A stretch of DNA of 56,256 bases from a bacterium (GTDB lineage: Bacteria > Bacteroidota > Ignavibacteria > Kapaibacteriales > UBA2268). Position 1 is the first letter of the stretch. The number at the start of each line of letters is the position of its first letter. Shown piece after piece: positions 33,763-46,683 of this stretch. The notes under the pieces are model-generated. The model made no database searches, was not told the origin of the DNA, and worked only from the letters and a program-made list of their open reading frames with translations. The translations under genes were made by a program, and so were the position numbers. The stretch lies in the NCBI GenBank assembly GCA_030431515.1, contig JAUIIX010000013.1, forward strand, positions 1 to 56,256. Reading direction: 5' to 3'.

Positions 33763-36700
33763 TTATTTAATGATAGTAATAGGAATAGACTCAATTACTT
33801 TAGAATCAACAATTAATTCAATAAAGTATTGACCATTAGAAATATTAGAAAGATTTAATTCAATTTGTTTTTCACCAATTTCTATGTTTGATTTAAGATT
33901 TAATAATTCTAAACCACGAACATCTCTTAATACTAATTGAGATTCTACATTTATTTTAGAATCTATTTTAATCTTTGCATTCTCATTAGTAGGGTTAGGA
34001 CTTACTGAAATAATACTAATATCTTTATTATAAGTATGAATAACTCTTCTATCTTCATGCAAACCATCGATAATAAGTTTTCCATTAGTAAAAATTGATT
34101 TAGTTGACTTTCCAAAATATGTATCACTTTCAACAAAAGTTAAGTTAGATTCATTAGTCTCTGCAATTCCAGCAACACCTTTAATAAGAATCGCAGTATC
34201 TGCAATTCCAAAATCACCAAAAGCATTTACTTTGATAATTCTTAAATCATTTTCAACTTTATTTTCAACTAAAGTAGCTTTGCCAAATTTAGAATATATT
34301 TCAGTAGGAAAGAAAAGACGAGGATTTATTGAAATTGAAGCATTAAAATTCCTTTCACCTTGATAATTCTTATTAGGCGAATCATTAATTAAAATTGGAA
34401 TTTCAACATCGGCAGCTGGAGATTCTGCTACTACTTCTGGTATGTTCAAGAAATTAGTAGATTTATATGGTAATAAAATAAATTTATTAGCCAATGGACA
34501 AGGATTAGCATTTATGTATAATCTAACCTCTCCTTGATAAACTTTATCCCATTCAATTTCTACTTGAATTGTTTCACCTGCTAATATAAAATTAGGCAGA
34601 GAAGAAACTATTTTATACCCATTATTCGGAGCAAAAGTATAACCAATTAATTCAATATCTTTTTGAAATTGATTAGTAATTGTTAATATTCTATTACCTT
34701 CCTCTTCAATAAATGGAAGATATTCATGACTTGCTATTAATTCAGAGCCAATTCCATCTATAGATAAAGTTATTTCAAAGTAATACTTCGTTTGATTATT
34801 AAAATATAACCTTAGCTTAGCAGTATTCTTAACAGCAAAAAAAGGAGAATATGAAATTGATAAGGCAAGAGTATCATCTTTTGTTAATATTCTTGGGATA
34901 AAATCATTTACTTTAAAAAATCCATCTGCTTCTACAATTTCAAAAGAAGTAATATCTAAGTCAATTTCATCTAAACTTTGAATAATATTAATAGTTTGAG
35001 TAACTGTATCATTAATGCAAAGTGTACCAAAATCATATTCATCAGTAAAATATTTAACATTACGAGGTAAACCAATTCCACTTAGTGGTACTTGAAAAGA
35101 TTGGGTGCAATTATCAGAGAATACCAATGTATCATCTAATTTACCAACATCTTGAGGATTAAAATAAATATTAAATGAAATACACTCACCAGGTTTTAAC
35201 GTATCTTTATATTTATCAAACTTTATATTATAATTAATTTTAGAATTAAACCAATAATTTGATAATTTGAAATCAACTTCACCTGTATTACAAAAATAGT
35301 TGCTATAGTAAATAGTATCAGAAGTAAAAATAAATTCTTCAGAAGTATAAATTGAGTCGTAACTAACTTTTGGTTCTATAATACTAATAGTAGAATCACT
35401 TATATCAGAAATAGGGAACATAATTCTAAATTTAGTTAATTCAGAAGGATTTCTCGAAGATAAAGTAATGGTATTCTCTGTAGAGGCGAATGAACCAGCA
35501 ATTACTTCACCTGATGCACCTCCAAAACCTTGAATAGCTCTATTCTGAACTAAATCCCAAACAAGCATTTGCGGAGCCCATTTAGAAATAATGACTAACA
35601 TAGAAGAGTTAGGACTAAACGATAAGTCTATAGGATCAGATGAACCAACTTCAAAAATATTAAATACAGTTCCAGATTCAACATCTAATAAATAAACAAA
35701 AGCTTTTTCTAAAGTTACATCATTAATTTTACCTGCAATAGCTATGAATTTTCCATCATTTGAAAAAGTCGAATTTATAATATAAGGAGTCGCATCTACA
35801 TTTATCGTTTTGATAATACTGTTATCAATAGTGCTAACTATAAAAATATTACCTGAGTAAGAAACTACAGACATTAAATCTGTTTTCTTGGAAATTGAAA
35901 CTGATGAAATATGTGTGTCAAAATCGATAGAATCAATTAGACCATTCATATCATATTTAAAAAGTTTTTTTCCATATTCTTGTAAAAGCCAAAAAGAATT
36001 ATCTTTCTGATCTGTGAAAATTTGCTGAACTGGAGTAACATTACTTACAAATCTGTAAACTGGTAAATTAGTATTTATATTATAAATAAGGAAAGAATCT
36101 TTATTTGCCACTTTCTTATTATCTCTGATACCAACTACAAAATGATCATCATCAATAAAACCAGTACCTGTATATTCAAAAGTAGTAATTGAATTACCAA
36201 ATCCGTATAAACCACCTTGCTCTAATTCAATTATTTTATTATCATATAATTTAATTAAATTATCACTATAATTATACTCCAAATCTAAAATATCATTATT
36301 TAAAGAATTTTTGGCACTCGATAAATTTTTAAAATCCTGATTTATTTTTATTAATCCTTTACGAGTAGTATCTTGCGGAATATTCCATACAAATGAATTT
36401 GATGTTGATGAACCAATTCTTTCCCAAGTATCTCCACTATCTAAAGAGAAACTAATATCAGTTTTAAAACCATTAGTGCTACCTTCCCAAGTTATTTCTT
36501 CATCAAAGCAAGGAGAGAATTTTTCTCCTCCATTTGGAGTCAATACATTAAAGAAACTGCTTAATTCTTCGCTTGTAATTTTTAAATTATTTCCAGTGAA
36601 GATTAGATTTGCTTTTGCTCCATCATCAAAATGAACTGTAAAAACATCAAAGTATGGAATCTCTGCTTCTGGCTTAAAAGAAAATGTTAGTAAATAGTTA

Positions 36701-37302
36701 GAAGAAGGAGTAATAGCTGTTGGAGGTTTTGAAAAATCTGAACTACCTAATTTACCATCCCAAGATGCTTTAAAAAATTTAGTTCGAGTAGTAATACTAT
36801 CTACTTTAATAGAAACAATATTTCCATCAATCATTCTATTACCATTTGTTCTCATAAAGACTTGTCTAATATGAGTACTACCAGGGCTGGCAACTCCAAA
36901 ATCTACGGTTTCAATACGTAATCCATCATCTACCTTAGTAAATATTAATCTGGGAGTATTTATATCTGGAAATGATAAATCAACGGAAGAAACATACCCT
37001 TTATAATTACAAATAAGAGTACCAGTATAATTCTTCGCATCACGAATAGAAGCATAATAAGGTTTCCATTTAACCTTAAATTTATTCCCTGAGATAATTT
37101 CAAATTCAAGAATAAGCTGAGAGAAATTTTTTTCAATTACTAAAAAATCAGATTTAGATGGTATAACATCTTCACCGAATAAAGATAAACTTGCTTCTGC
37201 ATTAATATAATATTCTTCATCGACATAGGAATTAGAAATATCAAGAACTAATTGTGAGTAAGAACAATAAGTTAGTATTAAAAATAATAGTATAATTTTC
37301 AT
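33763..37302 (-). CDS. T9SS-sorted surface protein with beta-propeller-like and ASH domains
   Basis: A 1179-residue exported protein. A signal peptide (KIILLFLILTYCSYS) is followed by an Ig-like region. A segment of the NGGEKFSPCFDEEITWEGS type (about 255) resembles Ig modules of surface proteins. A WD40/YVTN-like propeller follows (about 380-620; LSISKKTDLMSVVS and NSTFSNDGKFIAIAG patterns), then ASH repeats and a cohesin-like part (VEIPILINDSPN). A type A sorting domain ends the protein (VSPNPTNENAKIKI, LSNISNGQYFIELIV). The OmpA-family gene follows after 7 bases, suggesting a cargo-anchor pair. Its ligand is unknown. Confidence 0.75.
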   Translation of the reverse strand: MKIILLFLILTYCSYSQLVLDISNSYVDEEYYINAEASLSLFGEDVIPSKSDFLVIEKNFSQLILEFEIISGNKFKVKWKPYYASIRDAKNYTGTLICNYKGYVSSVDLSFPDINTPRLIFTKVDDGLRIETVDFGVASPGSTHIRQVFMRTNGNRMIDGNIVSIKVDSITTRTKFFKASWDGKLGSSDFSKPPTAITPSSNYLLTFSFKPEAEIPYFDVFTVHFDDGAKANLIFTGNNLKITSEELSSFFNVLTPNGGEKFSPCFDEEITWEGSTNGFKTDISFSLDSGDTWERIGSSTSNSFVWNIPQDTTRKGLIKINQDFKNLSSAKNSLNNDILDLEYNYSDNLIKLYDNKIIELEQGGLYGFGNSITTFEYTGTGFIDDDHFVVGIRDNKKVANKDSFLIYNINTNLPVYRFVSNVTPVQQIFTDQKDNSFWLLQEYGKKLFKYDMNGLIDSIDFDTHISSVSISKKTDLMSVVSYSGNIFIVSTIDNSIIKTINVDATPYIINSTFSNDGKFIAIAGKINDVTLEKAFVYLLDVESGTVFNIFEVGSSDPIDLSFSPNSSMLVIISKWAPQMLVWDLVQNRAIQGFGGASGEVIAGSFASTENTITLSSRNPSELTKFRIMFPISDISDSTISIIEPKVSYDSIYTSEEFIFTSDTIYYSNYFCNTGEVDFKLSNYWFNSKINYNIKFDKYKDTLKPGECISFNIYFNPQDVGKLDDTLVFSDNCTQSFQVPLSGIGLPRNVKYFTDEYDFGTLCINDTVTQTINIIQSLDEIDLDITSFEIVEADGFFKVNDFIPRILTKDDTLALSISYSPFFAVKNTAKLRLYFNNQTKYYFEITLSIDGIGSELIASHEYLPFIEEEGNRILTITNQFQKDIELIGYTFAPNNGYKIVSSLPNFILAGETIQVEIEWDKVYQGEVRLYINANPCPLANKFILLPYKSTNFLNIPEVVAESPAADVEIPILINDSPNKNYQGERNFNASISINPRLFFPTEIYSKFGKATLVENKVENDLRIIKVNAFGDFGIADTAILIKGVAGIAETNESNLTFVESDTYFGKSTKSIFTNGKLIIDGLHEDRRVIHTYNKDISIISVSPNPTNENAKIKIDSKINVESQLVLRDVRGLELLNLKSNIEIGEKQIELNLSNISNGQYFIELIVDSKVIESIPITIIK

Positions 37303-42238: not shown

Positions 42239-44326
42239 ATGCAAAAAATTTCAATATTAATATTTATTACATTTATTTCAATTATAGGTAATCTTTATAG
42301 CCAATCTAATTGGGAAGAAATTCAAAGGTTTCAAGAAACAGTTCTAGTAGCTGATAATCGATTTGGAAGTTCAGTATCAATATCTGGAAATTATGCAATA
42401 ATTGGGTCTCCTTTAGATGATTCAGAAGGAGCTAACGCTGGTGTAGTGTATTTCTATGAATTGATTAATGGCACTTGGGTAGAAATGCAAAGGGTAACTT
42501 CTTCAGATGCAGATGCTGGAGATAATTTTGGTGTATCAGTTTCAATATCTGGTACAAAAGCTGTTGTAGGAGCTAGTAATGAATCTGGAACTGGAGCAGC
42601 ATACTTTTTTGAATTAAGTGGAGGAACTTGGTCAGAGGTCAACAAAGTTTTTGCTTCTGATGCACAAAATGGTGATGGTTTTGGTCTTTCTGTATCTATA
42701 TCAGGAACGAATGCTGTAATCGGTGCGAATGGTGAAGATTCTGGAGGTCTTACAGCTGGAGCAGCATACTTTTTTGATTTAAGTGGTGGAACATGGTCTG
42801 AAGTTAATAAAGTTATAGCTTCTGATTCACAAAATAATGACCAATTTGGAAGATCCGTTGCAATTTCAGGAACAAATGCTGTTGTAGGTGCATATTTAGA
42901 AGACACAAGTTTTCCAAATAATGGGGCAGTTTACTTCTTTGAGTTAAGTGGTGGTACTTGGTCAGAAACCCAAAAAGTATTAGCATCAGATCAAGAAAAT
43001 AATGCTCAGTTTGGGATTTCAGTTGCAATATCAGGAACAAATGCAATCGTTGGTACATGGTATGAAGATTCAGGAGTAAATTCAGATAATGGAGCTGTTT
43101 ATTTTTATGAATTAAATGGTGGTACATGGAGTGAAGTAAATAAACTTATTGCTTCCGATCCTGATGATGCTGTAAATTTGGGAACAACTGTAGCAATTGA
43201 TGGAAATTATGCCGTATCAGGTGCAAGGGAAATATTTAATGCTACTGGGAATGATGAAGGTTCAGCTTATTTTTATAAATTTGATGGATCTACTTGGTCA
43301 GAAATTAATAAAGTAAAAGCATCAGATGCAGAAGCATCAGATGAATTTGGAATTGCAGTTGGAATTTCAGGAAACTATGCACTAATTGGAGCAAGGCGAG
43401 AAGATACTGGAGGAAATGATGTTGGAGCTTCATATTTCTTTAAGCATTATTTTGCTCCAACTTTAACATCATTTACTGCTTTAGCAAATAATAATTTAGT
43501 TGGAGATTTAAGTGTAAACGTTGACGATAATGAACTATCAACTACATTCTCATTTAAATATGGAATTAGTTCTGGAAATTATACTAATGAAAGTAATACC
43601 ATTATTCTAGCTGGTGATGATATCATTAGCAGAGAAACCGCACAACTAAATGGATTAACAGAACATCAAACATATTTTGTTATAGCTGAAGCAACAAATA
43701 GAATTGGTACTACTATTAGCCAAGAAGAAGAATTTACTGCCTTAATTTCAACAGATGATGTAGATGGAGATGGAATTATTGATAGTCTTGAAAGCTTAGC
43801 TCCAAATTCTGGTGATGGGAATAATGATGGGATACAAGATTCACAACAAGCTAATATAGCGAGTTTTGAAAGTATTTCAGGTTCATTTGTTACTATAGAA
43901 AGTATAACCTGCGACTATCTTTTTAATGTTAAGAATAATACGAAAATTAGCGATGGAAAATTTGAGTTTCCGTTTGGAGTTCTTTCCTTTTCAGCTCCTT
44001 GTTCAAGTGCAGAAGTAAAAATATATTTCCACGGTATTGTTTCATTAGATGGATTTACATATCGCAAACTCCTACCAAATGATAATTATGGACAATTTGA
44101 AAATGTAATATTCTCCACAGAAACAATCGAAGATAATCAAGTAGCTGTTGCAACCCTTTCTCTTATAGACGGTGGCTTAGGTGATTATGATGGTATTGTC
44201 AACGGCGTAATTTATGACCCCGGTGGACCTGCTCTTCCTATTACTGCCAATATTCCAGTATGGGATTGGTGGTGGGTGATTGTTTTATTTTCATGTGTAT
44301 TAATAATTTACAAAAGAACTACTTGA
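42239..44326 (+). CDS. FG-GAP repeat surface protein with choice-of-anchor U region and CTERM-like tail
   Basis: A 695-residue protein. A signal peptide (about 1-22) is followed by about seven FG-GAP-type repeats of ~55 residues (FGVSVSISGTKAVVGA, FGLSVSISGTNAVIGA), likely one beta-propeller. A fibronectin-like region (about 405-500) and a calcium-loop stretch (DVDGDGIIDSLE, GDGNNDGIQDSQQ) come next. Then there is a choice-of-anchor U-type segment (VNGVIYDPGGPA). The tail IPVWDWWWVIVLFSC plus a hydrophobic run and YKRTT resembles IPTL/PEP-CTERM sorting ends rather than the T9SS domain used by other surface proteins here. It is probably a membrane-anchored adhesion protein. Confidence 0.8.
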   Translation: MQKISILIFITFISIIGNLYSQSNWEEIQRFQETVLVADNRFGSSVSISGNYAIIGSPLDDSEGANAGVVYFYELINGTWVEMQRVTSSDADAGDNFGVSVSISGTKAVVGASNESGTGAAYFFELSGGTWSEVNKVFASDAQNGDGFGLSVSISGTNAVIGANGEDSGGLTAGAAYFFDLSGGTWSEVNKVIASDSQNNDQFGRSVAISGTNAVVGAYLEDTSFPNNGAVYFFELSGGTWSETQKVLASDQENNAQFGISVAISGTNAIVGTWYEDSGVNSDNGAVYFYELNGGTWSEVNKLIASDPDDAVNLGTTVAIDGNYAVSGAREIFNATGNDEGSAYFYKFDGSTWSEINKVKASDAEASDEFGIAVGISGNYALIGARREDTGGNDVGASYFFKHYFAPTLTSFTALANNNLVGDLSVNVDDNELSTTFSFKYGISSGNYTNESNTIILAGDDIISRETAQLNGLTEHQTYFVIAEATNRIGTTISQEEEFTALISTDDVDGDGIIDSLESLAPNSGDGNNDGIQDSQQANIASFESISGSFVTIESITCDYLFNVKNNTKISDGKFEFPFGVLSFSAPCSSAEVKIYFHGIVSLDGFTYRKLLPNDNYGQFENVIFSTETIEDNQVAVATLSLIDGGLGDYDGIVNGVIYDPGGPALPITANIPVWDWWWVIVLFSCVLIIYKRTT
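44180..44278 (+). repeat. 99-bp 3' cassette, copy 1
   Basis: This encodes GDYDGIVNGVIYDPGGPA through IPVWDWWW and matches 46509-46607 at 98 of 99 bases, whereas the genes differ widely upstream. It also looks less AT-rich than its surroundings. Confidence 0.85.
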
Positions 44327-46356
44327 TTATTTAAGATTTTTTTTATTAACAATGGACAGACTTTGAAAATATTATTATTTACTATTATATTATTTTTTAC
44401 AAATTCTTTATTTTCAACGGAAGTTGTTGAAATAGTCAAGACAGTTAACTCTGATAGATTAGCTGGTGACCAGTTTGGAGTAGGAGTTGGAATAAGTGGT
44501 AACTATGCAATTGTTGTAGCAAGACGACAAACTTTAGATGAAAATGGACTTAATCCTATAGCTAATGCAGGAGCGGCATATATTTATGAACGTGATCCAT
44601 CTACAGGCGAATGGTCTGAGTTGCAAAAATTGGTTACAAGTGATAGAGCAATTAACGATGATATGATATCTGCTGATATTAGTGGTGATTATGCAGTTGT
44701 TGGTACTAAATTGCAGGATTATGATGAAAATGGGGGGGCGTTTATAAATGATGCTGGGGCAGCTTATGTTTTTAAACGTGATCCTAATTCTGGTGTTTGG
44801 TCAGAACAACAAAAGATTGTTGCAGGAGATAGAGGAACAACAGATGACTTTGGGATATTTGTTGCGATTGATAATACATATATAGTCGTCGGAGCAAGAT
44901 ATGAAAATGAAGATGCCGCAGGAGGTAATTTTCGTAATGAAGCTGGTTCAGCATACATATATGAACTAAATAGCGGAACAGGAGTTTGGGAACAAGCTCA
45001 AAAAATTGTTGCAAGTGACAGAACTTCAGGAGATAAGTTTGGAGGTAGGTTAGCAATATCTGGGAATTATGTAATTGTAGGCGCAGTTGACGAGGATCAT
45101 GATTTAAGTGGGAATAATTTTTTAAACAATGCTGGTTCTGCTTACATCTTTGAAAGAAGCAACCTTGGTGTTTGGAGTCAAGTACAAAAGATTGTAGCAA
45201 GCGATAGAGAGGCAAATGCATGGTTTGGGATAAGTGTAGATGTTGATGAAGATTACATAGTAGTAGGAGCAGTAAACCAGGATACAGATGAAAATGGAGC
45301 TAATGTTCTTAATGATGCAGGTGCAGCATATATATTTAAAAATGTAAGTGGAGTTTGGACTGAAGTTCAAAAGATTGTAGCAAGCGATAGAGCAATAGGA
45401 AATGTTTTCGGGGGTTATTTATCAATTAATGATAGCAAAATAGTAATTGGGGCTGCTGGTGAAGATGAAGATGCAGATGGAAATAATACAATTAATAATG
45501 CGGGTGCAGCATATTTATTTGAGTTAAATGACCAATCTGGAGTTTGGTCTGAAGTAAAAAAAATCGTTGCAAGTGATAGAGATGCAGATAATATATTTGG
45601 ATCTACTCTTAGCATAGATGGAAAAAATATAATTGTAGGGACAATTAAAGAAAGTGAGGATGAAAATGGGAATAATACATTGGTTGATGCAGGAGCAGTA
45701 TATTTTTATATTTTAAAAAAACCACCAACTCTAACTTCATTTAATATTAATTCAGTCAATAATTATAGCGCTGGATTATCCATAAATATAGATGATGAAG
45801 GTGAAGCAACAACTCTAACTTTTAAATATGGTACAAGCTCTGGTAATTATACAGAACAAACGCCTATAATTAATCTAACAGGTGATGATATTGAAAGTAC
45901 AGAGTTTGCTCTAATTACAAATCTTGTAAGAAATCAAATTTATTATTTTATAGCAGAAGCTACTAACAGTACAGGTACTACACAAAGCAATGAAATTGAA
46001 TTTAGTCCTTTGAAAAATGTAAATGATAGTGATAGTGATGGAATCAATGATTCTTTAGAGAATGAAGGGCCTAACAATGGAGATGCTAATTTTGATGGAA
46101 TTCTAGATTCAGAACAATCAAATGTTACAAGTTTACTATCAAACAATTCTTATGTAACAATTGAAATAATTGGATGTGACTCAATCTATGATGTAAGTGA
46201 AAAAACTGAATTTGTTGATAACAATTTTGTTTTTCCTTTAGGACAAATGGAGTTTAAACTTCCTTGCTCTAATGCAGAAGTAAAACTATACTTCCATGGA
46301 ATTACTTCTTTAAATGACTACTCTTACCGGAAAAAATTCCCAGATAACACTTACAA

Positions 46357-46476
46357 GCAATTTGAAAATGCAATATTCTCAGCTACTTGATTTCCACCAA
46401 TTGTTTCAGTTGAGAATATTGCAATTTGAAAATGCAATATTCTCAACTGAAACAATTGGTGGAAATCAAGTAGCTG
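46357..46476. repeat. Template-switch insertion: 44-bp perfect inverted repeat plus 25-bp direct repeat
   Basis: 46380-46423 is the exact reverse complement of 46433-46476, with a 9-base loop. The 25 bases at 46357-46381 recur at 46421-46445, a shift of 64 bases. The extra 64 bp thus consist of an inverted copy of downstream sequence plus a second copy of the upstream junction. This is the mark of a strand switch during replication or of a chimeric read. It causes the frameshift. Confidence 0.9.
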
Positions 46477-46508
46477 TTGTCACTCTTTCATTAACTGACG
46501 GAGGACCT

Positions 46509-46607
46509 GGTGATTATGATGGTATAGTCAACGGCGTAATTTATGACCCCGGTGGACCTGCTCTTCCTATTACTGCCAATATTCCAGTATGGGATTGGTG
46601 GTGGGTG
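46509..46607 (+). repeat. 99-bp 3' cassette, copy 2
   Basis: Second copy of the cassette at 44180-44278, with one mismatch (an A for a T before the TCAACGG stretch). Confidence 0.85.
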
Positions 46608-46683
46608 CTAATAATAATTCCAACCACAATTTACTTTAATAGAAAGTATAGTTTAAATAAAGAAATTAATCACCTTTAAAAAG

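Follow-up and report, generated by a model that had tools for sequence, protein, structure and literature searches.

Long perfect palindromes within coding sequence have reportedly been encountered in nematomorph mitochondria, and the four-point template-switch mutation is said to go back to Loytynoja and Goldman in 2017. Nascent-strand template switching is an established form of mutation in Escherichia coli; as the accessible text of the relevant study describes it, the quasipalindrome-associated form involves a nascent strand that folds back, templates itself and returns, with small changes that perfect an imperfect palindrome as the outcome (PMC7202029). Intrastrand template switches of the four-point kind can create perfect stems in one event, the genes concerned in the available part of that work being RNA genes (microRNA, rRNA; PMC8794818). 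For bacteria, the accessible portion of a mutation-bias review (PMC10710837) likewise treats hairpins and template switching as known local causes of mutation, and contains nothing specific to this locus. Closest in layout are the small inverted triplications with the order DUP/IN/DUP found in yeast rad27/FEN1 and in human cancer genomes, for which the available sections of the report give yeast medians of 148/160/148, a spacer of 30 and a junction microhomology of 6 bp, together with ranges that start at 7 bp for the duplication and at 20 bp for the inversion (PMC13334657). Among the matches listed for the open PMC literature, triplication terms occurred only in that article.

Here we describe a locus of the same layout within a bacterial surface-protein gene. 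The window, that is, the whole stretch of DNA analysed (56,256 nucleotides), corresponds to contig C105 in the draft assembly of an environmental bacterium, which comprises 160 contigs and 3,548,371 bases and is scored 100% complete with 0.16 contamination. The urocanate hydratase of this bacterium finds its best near-full-length match, at 78% identity, in an Ignavibacteriae metagenome bin, and a match of 82% over residues 4-270 in another bacterium, so that an uncultured member of the Bacteroidota/Ignavibacteriota is the probable source. We consider it probable that the anchored form of one member of a family of FG-GAP / choice-of-anchor U surface proteins was lost through one local template-switch mutation whose product is laid out like a small inverted triplication. 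The event has the look of an isolated copying mistake and not of a built-in switch; mutations of this kind are already on record, and the locus is a natural bacterial example of it if it is real in the cell.

Structure of the inserted sequence

All features of the locus lie on the plus strand. As the initial annotation had pointed out, the segments 46380-46423 and 46433-46476 are exact reverse complements of each other in the unmodified window (44/44 bp), separated by a loop of 9 nt (46424-46432), and the 25 bases at 46357-46381 recur without a mismatch (25/25) at 46421-46445. The 39 nt that lie between the two direct copies (46382-46420) are in turn an exact reverse complement of 46436-46474, and the insert therefore totals 64 nt, 25 duplicated and 39 inverted, with no base left over. 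The right arm aligns with native paralogue sequence and the second direct copy is continuous with the native downstream frame. A repeat finder that allows one mismatch reports arms of 48 nt at 98% identity around a loop of 1 nt; the bases immediately beyond the perfect arms, T and T, are unpaired, and the two direct copies have different neighbouring bases, so that the boundaries of the insertion are sharp. The segments overlap by 2 nt (CA) at one junction and by 3 nt (GCA) at the other, which amounts to microhomology at both breakpoints, and the order is that of DUP/IN/DUP, two direct 25-nt copies flanking an inverted copy that overlaps both. As single-stranded DNA, the segment 46357-46480 folds into the 44-bp hairpin with a predicted energy of -53.4 kcal/mol, a stability reached by none of 200 shuffled sequences (mean -12.6, z = -15.5).

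The locus shares with the small inverted triplications of yeast and cancer genomes the direct, inverted and direct copies, the spacers, the junction microhomology, the capacity to form a hairpin and the position in a gene body; it differs in coming from a natural bacterial draft genome and in its dimensions of 25/39-44/25, with spacers of 9 and 31 and junctions of 2 and 3 nt. These overlaps and sizes lie below the yeast medians and within the duplication and inversion ranges given in the accessible text (PMC13334657). With the four-point intrastrand switch it would have in common an inverted copy of nearby sequence that yields a perfect stem in one event with the nascent strand as template, although, so far as the available part of that source goes, the cases there concern RNA genes and here a bacterial protein gene is broken and its parent has to be deduced from paralogues (PMC8794818). 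The fold-back, self-templating and return of the nascent strand would also be those of quasipalindrome-associated mutation in E. coli, where, as far as the accessible text covers them, the changes are small and perfect an existing imperfect palindrome, whereas here only a 3-bp stem would have pre-existed and 64 nt were added (PMC7202029).

Of the 827,162 bases sampled (23% of the genome), 46380-46476 alone holds a perfect inverted repeat with arms above 17 bp and a loop of up to 150 nt. The sample is a non-random set of 61 stretches: the window, 20 stretches from contigs mostly picked for their paralogues, and 40 from other contigs, each taken over its opening 20 kb or in full. No further perfect hairpin above 17 bp lies in the sampled parts of the paralogue contigs. 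In other genomes, the longest perfect arm within the same loop limit measures 24 bp across 443,664 bases, a control made up of all 45 loci from a scan with HutU (urocanate hydratase, TIGR01228, 919.9 bits).

The interrupted gene and its product

The truncated frame (44363-46390) encodes 675 aa with a hydrophobic N-terminus that resembles a signal peptide as judged by eye, seven FG-GAP stretches (FG-GAP_2, E 5.8e-74) and the beginning of a choice-of-anchor U domain. The last of these was assigned by alignment only, the 675-aa piece alone giving no match to NF041766 at E 0.1. The frame is lost because 64 is one over a multiple of three (3x21+1), and it closes at a TGA (46388-46390) that lies inside the insert and was created by it. 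The end of the gene is left in a mechanically called open reading frame of 121 aa (46314-46679), which carries positions 56-92 of choice-of-anchor U (46443-46565) and the C-terminal tail, and which matches the domain model with 45.1 bits, above the curated cut-off of 32. The tail opens with the motif PVWDWWW (start at 46584-46600), followed by hydrophobic and basic residues, and is out of frame with the main open reading frame. Truncation ahead of the membrane anchor, as initially proposed, is thus borne out by the sequence: the frame ends within choice-of-anchor U and before the PVWDWWW tail, and loses the last 37 of the 92 domain positions along with the hydrophobic tail. The 750-residue protein that had been predicted to result from removal of the 64 bp also follows arithmetically, (46679-44363+1-64)/3 giving 751 codons including the stop.

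The truncated product would be exportable and not anchored, and would either be released or degraded. Since the last 37 domain positions are lost, a failure to fold is more probable than release by design, and the product may well be degraded.

The paralogue family and the parent allele

Directly upstream lies an intact tandem paralogue of 695 aa (42239-44326), which has FG-GAP stretches, a choice-of-anchor U domain over the cut-off (53.7 bits against 32) and the same kind of tail, and which lacks the insertion. Eleven choice-of-anchor U matches were found in the genome, the target included. When the target was aligned as it stands, insert left in, to the ten other copies, all ten lacked the 64 nt and read straight through the site; the two closest paralogues are 72-88% identical to the target in the pieces that flank the insert. 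The parent allele is accordingly a putative one, reconstructed from paralogues instead of being read off the corresponding gene of a sister strain.

The domain was found in four of the 36 genomes searched (G000, which is the genome of the window, G001, G002 and G017), in a total of 19 copies: 17 are whole, one (on contig C56) runs into a contig end, and the target alone is broken in mid-contig. A search of 60 genomes with the 675-aa piece returned matches in eight, its own included, and two genomes of the same genus match only parts of it. No relative of the target protein is encoded in 105 pattern-matched stretches of the genome collection, a set that may leave out near records.

Family members are clustered in twos or threes in the genome of the window (C19:132058-136924, C105:42239-46679 and C10:22519-24823). 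Some of the family matches lie at contig ends (C19, C22, C10 and C56), which marks the family as hard to assemble; together, the clustering and the contig ends suggest tandem expansion and assembly breaks.

The motif P[IV]W[DE]W[WY], behind which come a hydrophobic stretch and basic residues, has 11 matches in the genome (46584-46600, 44255-44271 and nine other sites) and none for the reversed control. This build is similar to that of C-terminal sorting signals, IPTL-CTERM among them. Neither of the two tails in the window matched a sorting-signal model of NCBIfam; the final part of choice-of-anchor U was matched weakly, and one of the tails gave a match to a daptide model that fell far below its cut-off. 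Elsewhere in the window, 33763-37302 encodes a large protein with HYDIN/ASH-type Ig-like domains and weak beta-propeller matches. With a Por_Secre_tail match of 28.6 bits, just above the cut-off of 27, this protein points to type IX secretion as a possible additional route.

The tail of the rejoined protein had also been described as the same as that of its neighbour, which is very nearly so: 46509-46607 agrees with 44180-44278 of the tandem paralogue at 98 of 99 nt, with one mismatch and a longest exact run of 81. This tract begins 32 nt past the right hairpin arm. In the tract register, the adjoining 40-nt windows from 46470 and from 46610 onward are identical at 27/40 and 16/40 positions, and windows at 46430-46489 reach 32/40 in the comparison of target and tandem paralogue. 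The tract was compared among the target and seven of the ten other copies, C19:136643, C10 and C56 being left out (contig end, different tail spacing or truncated start). Only two of the 28 pairs exceed 87/99, namely the tandem pair and C22/C19:132058 (95/99, run of 47), and the target agrees with the six other compared copies at 70-87 of the 99 positions. On these identities, 46509-46607 looks as if the tandem paralogues had recently undergone gene conversion at the end that codes for the anchor.

Origin of the insert

All 64 extra bases are templated by the immediate neighbourhood. The inverted piece matches its own locus at 39/39 positions and the tandem paralogue at 32/39, which indicates that the template was local and sets aside donation from the paralogue (7 mismatches against none). 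A transposon or an IS-like element was also considered and rejected, as every inserted base is local and no separate element is present. The same holds for a recombinase-driven inversion, given that inversion of a 9-nt loop would change nothing of substance.

The initial annotation had proposed that strand switching at a fork inserted an inverted copy of downstream sequence at a short homology. Local strand switching would explain all 64 bases, with overlaps of 2 and 3 nt at the junctions; the plus-strand course, in which the copy would have to skip 31 nt forward and change to the opposite strand on an overlap of 2 nt, is less simple than a fold-back of the minus strand. In the latter, the nascent minus strand, copied as far as 46421, would fold back on itself, its 3' TGC pairing with its own GCA across the 9-nt loop in a pre-existing 3-bp stem. 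Some 41 nt would then be copied off the nascent strand to form the inverted arm, after which the new 3' end, TG, would re-anneal to the original template at 46444-46445, about 24 nt behind the point of departure, and this return would cause 25 nt to be copied a second time. Folding of the first repeat copy likewise predicts a mini-hairpin of the form GCA-N9-TGC (3 bp, 9-nt loop), a 3-bp stem being a weak feature. Both routes would leave the identical sequence, and we prefer the intrastrand one as the simpler, since it needs no second template. The perfect repeats and the otherwise open frame on both sides suggest that the event is young.

Alternative explanations

The most serious rival to a mutation in the cell is that the living population carries an unbroken gene and that the insert stems from a fold-back molecule formed during whole-genome amplification or library preparation, or from an assembly error. 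A typical amplified single-cell genome is unlike the present one, which is complete at the score given above and nearly free of contamination. The same fold-back chemistry nevertheless acts in vitro: in the accessible text on phi29 amplification, about 85% of the chimeras are inverted and more than 70% of the junctions are primed at 2-21 nt of complementarity (PMC1855051), and enzymatic fragmentation is described, in the available part of another source, as yielding artefacts at palindromes (PMC6941819). The fragmentation of the draft, with members of this very family at some of its contig ends, and the fact that the remainder of the target gene is open on both sides of the insert would fit such an artefact as well. 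On the other hand, fold-back artefacts should be random from molecule to molecule and would have to win locally in order to enter a consensus, and a single structure of this kind occurs in the bases sampled. The amplification chimeras, made in the tube, resemble the locus in an inverted join primed by a few bases; as far as the accessible text describes them, they are mostly single inverted joins with an intervening deletion, whereas here the copy returns to the original strand and no base is lost (PMC1855051). We therefore regard an artefact as unlikely, at roughly the weight of a serious minority view; should it apply, the locus would show how a gene in a draft assembly can be made to look like a pseudogene by a fold-back read.

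In the pneumococcal capsule, a reversible tandem duplication inside a gene is known to bring about phase variation, with switching shown, and surface proteins, of which the target is one, are a usual object of phase variation. As in the capsule, a duplication breaks the frame and its precise loss is possible; the capsule duplication is a simple tandem one, whereas this locus includes an inverted piece. It had been suggested at the outset that the insertion, if reversible, would be a phase-variation device; gain and loss at high frequency would then toggle the protein from anchored to released and back. The 25-nt direct repeats around the hairpin would favour precise loss by slippage, for which the accessible text on E. 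coli plasmids offers a precedent (PMC13334657). Gain, in contrast, would require two template switches guided by 2-3 nt and would not be the work of a recombinase or a repeat tract. The suggestion finds no support across the family: the recurrence in homologous loci expected of a contingency locus was not seen among the 19 domain copies, 18 of which are not broken in this way, and the paralogue-contig stretches, as noted, contain no second such hairpin. The probable misfolding of the truncated product also speaks against a designed released form, and we judge a reversible device very improbable. Still less credible is a functional RNA or translational element, be it a terminator, an attenuator or a site of ribosome bypass via repeated codons that would allow the full protein to be made. 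The hairpin is very stable, and ribosomes could use the 25-nt repeats on its two sides as matching codons for take-off and landing; to our knowledge, however, ribosome bypassing is documented in very few cases. Between 46200 and 46800 there are no terminator-like sites (0.3 in shuffles), which disposes of a terminator, and the two promoter-like matches do not exceed chance (3.2). Such an element would moreover be confined to the target, as none of the ten other family members has it, and its perfect arms are fully accounted for by a recent copying event, so that we give this reading almost no weight.

Reversion and SbcCD

In the accessible text on structures resembling small inverted triplications in E. 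coli plasmids, the inverted part and one copy are lost precisely; about half of the signal had gone this way by day 4, after which the ratio stayed fairly stable in what the authors call a "dynamic equilibrium", and sbcC, sbcD or rep mutants kept the structure to day 15 (PMC13334657). By analogy, loss of the present insert by slippage between its 25-nt repeats is plausible, and regain would not be expected at any useful rate. A two-way switch is thus unsupported, because regain would need both short-homology switches again, and an insert that can be lost and not usefully regained is a mutation and not a switch.

Neither TIGR00619 nor PF12320 found a match to SbcD in the genome. In a set of 14 control genomes, TIGR00619 matches 13, of which only eight exceed its cut-off, and PF12320 matches only six. 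Across the 36 genomes, TIGR00619 gave a match at E 1e-3 in 22 and none in 14, that of the window included; the cut-off was passed in eight of the 36, none of which belongs to the family of the window; that family is represented by 22 genomes, 11 of which have weak matches. The SbcC profile returned three weak matches limited to the first 52-69 of its 1043 positions, in frames of 1171, 385 and 315 aa, which for these reasons were not counted as SbcC; the model is itself a poor judge, as it matches all 14 controls and passes its cut-off in one. The absence of an SbcD match may be a trait of the family or reflect divergence, another nuclease could take its place, and the point is a weak one. As a suggestion only, the hairpin might persist longer in a genome of this kind. 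One could go further and propose that, where SbcCD is not recognisable, surface-protein genes keep fold-back duplications for long enough that these work as slow off-states which erase themselves: the hairpin insert would silence the anchored protein or release it, and slippage at the direct repeats would later delete the insert precisely. We consider this improbable; if true, it would be a natural one-sided contingency mechanism that operates without repeat tracts or recombinases.

If the insert is real in the cell, the locus is an unusually legible bacterial small inverted triplication, in which both junctions can be read and the layout without the insert is visible in ten paralogues, in a genome without an SbcD match. 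It would then open the question of whether lineages that lack SbcCD retain such hairpins for longer.
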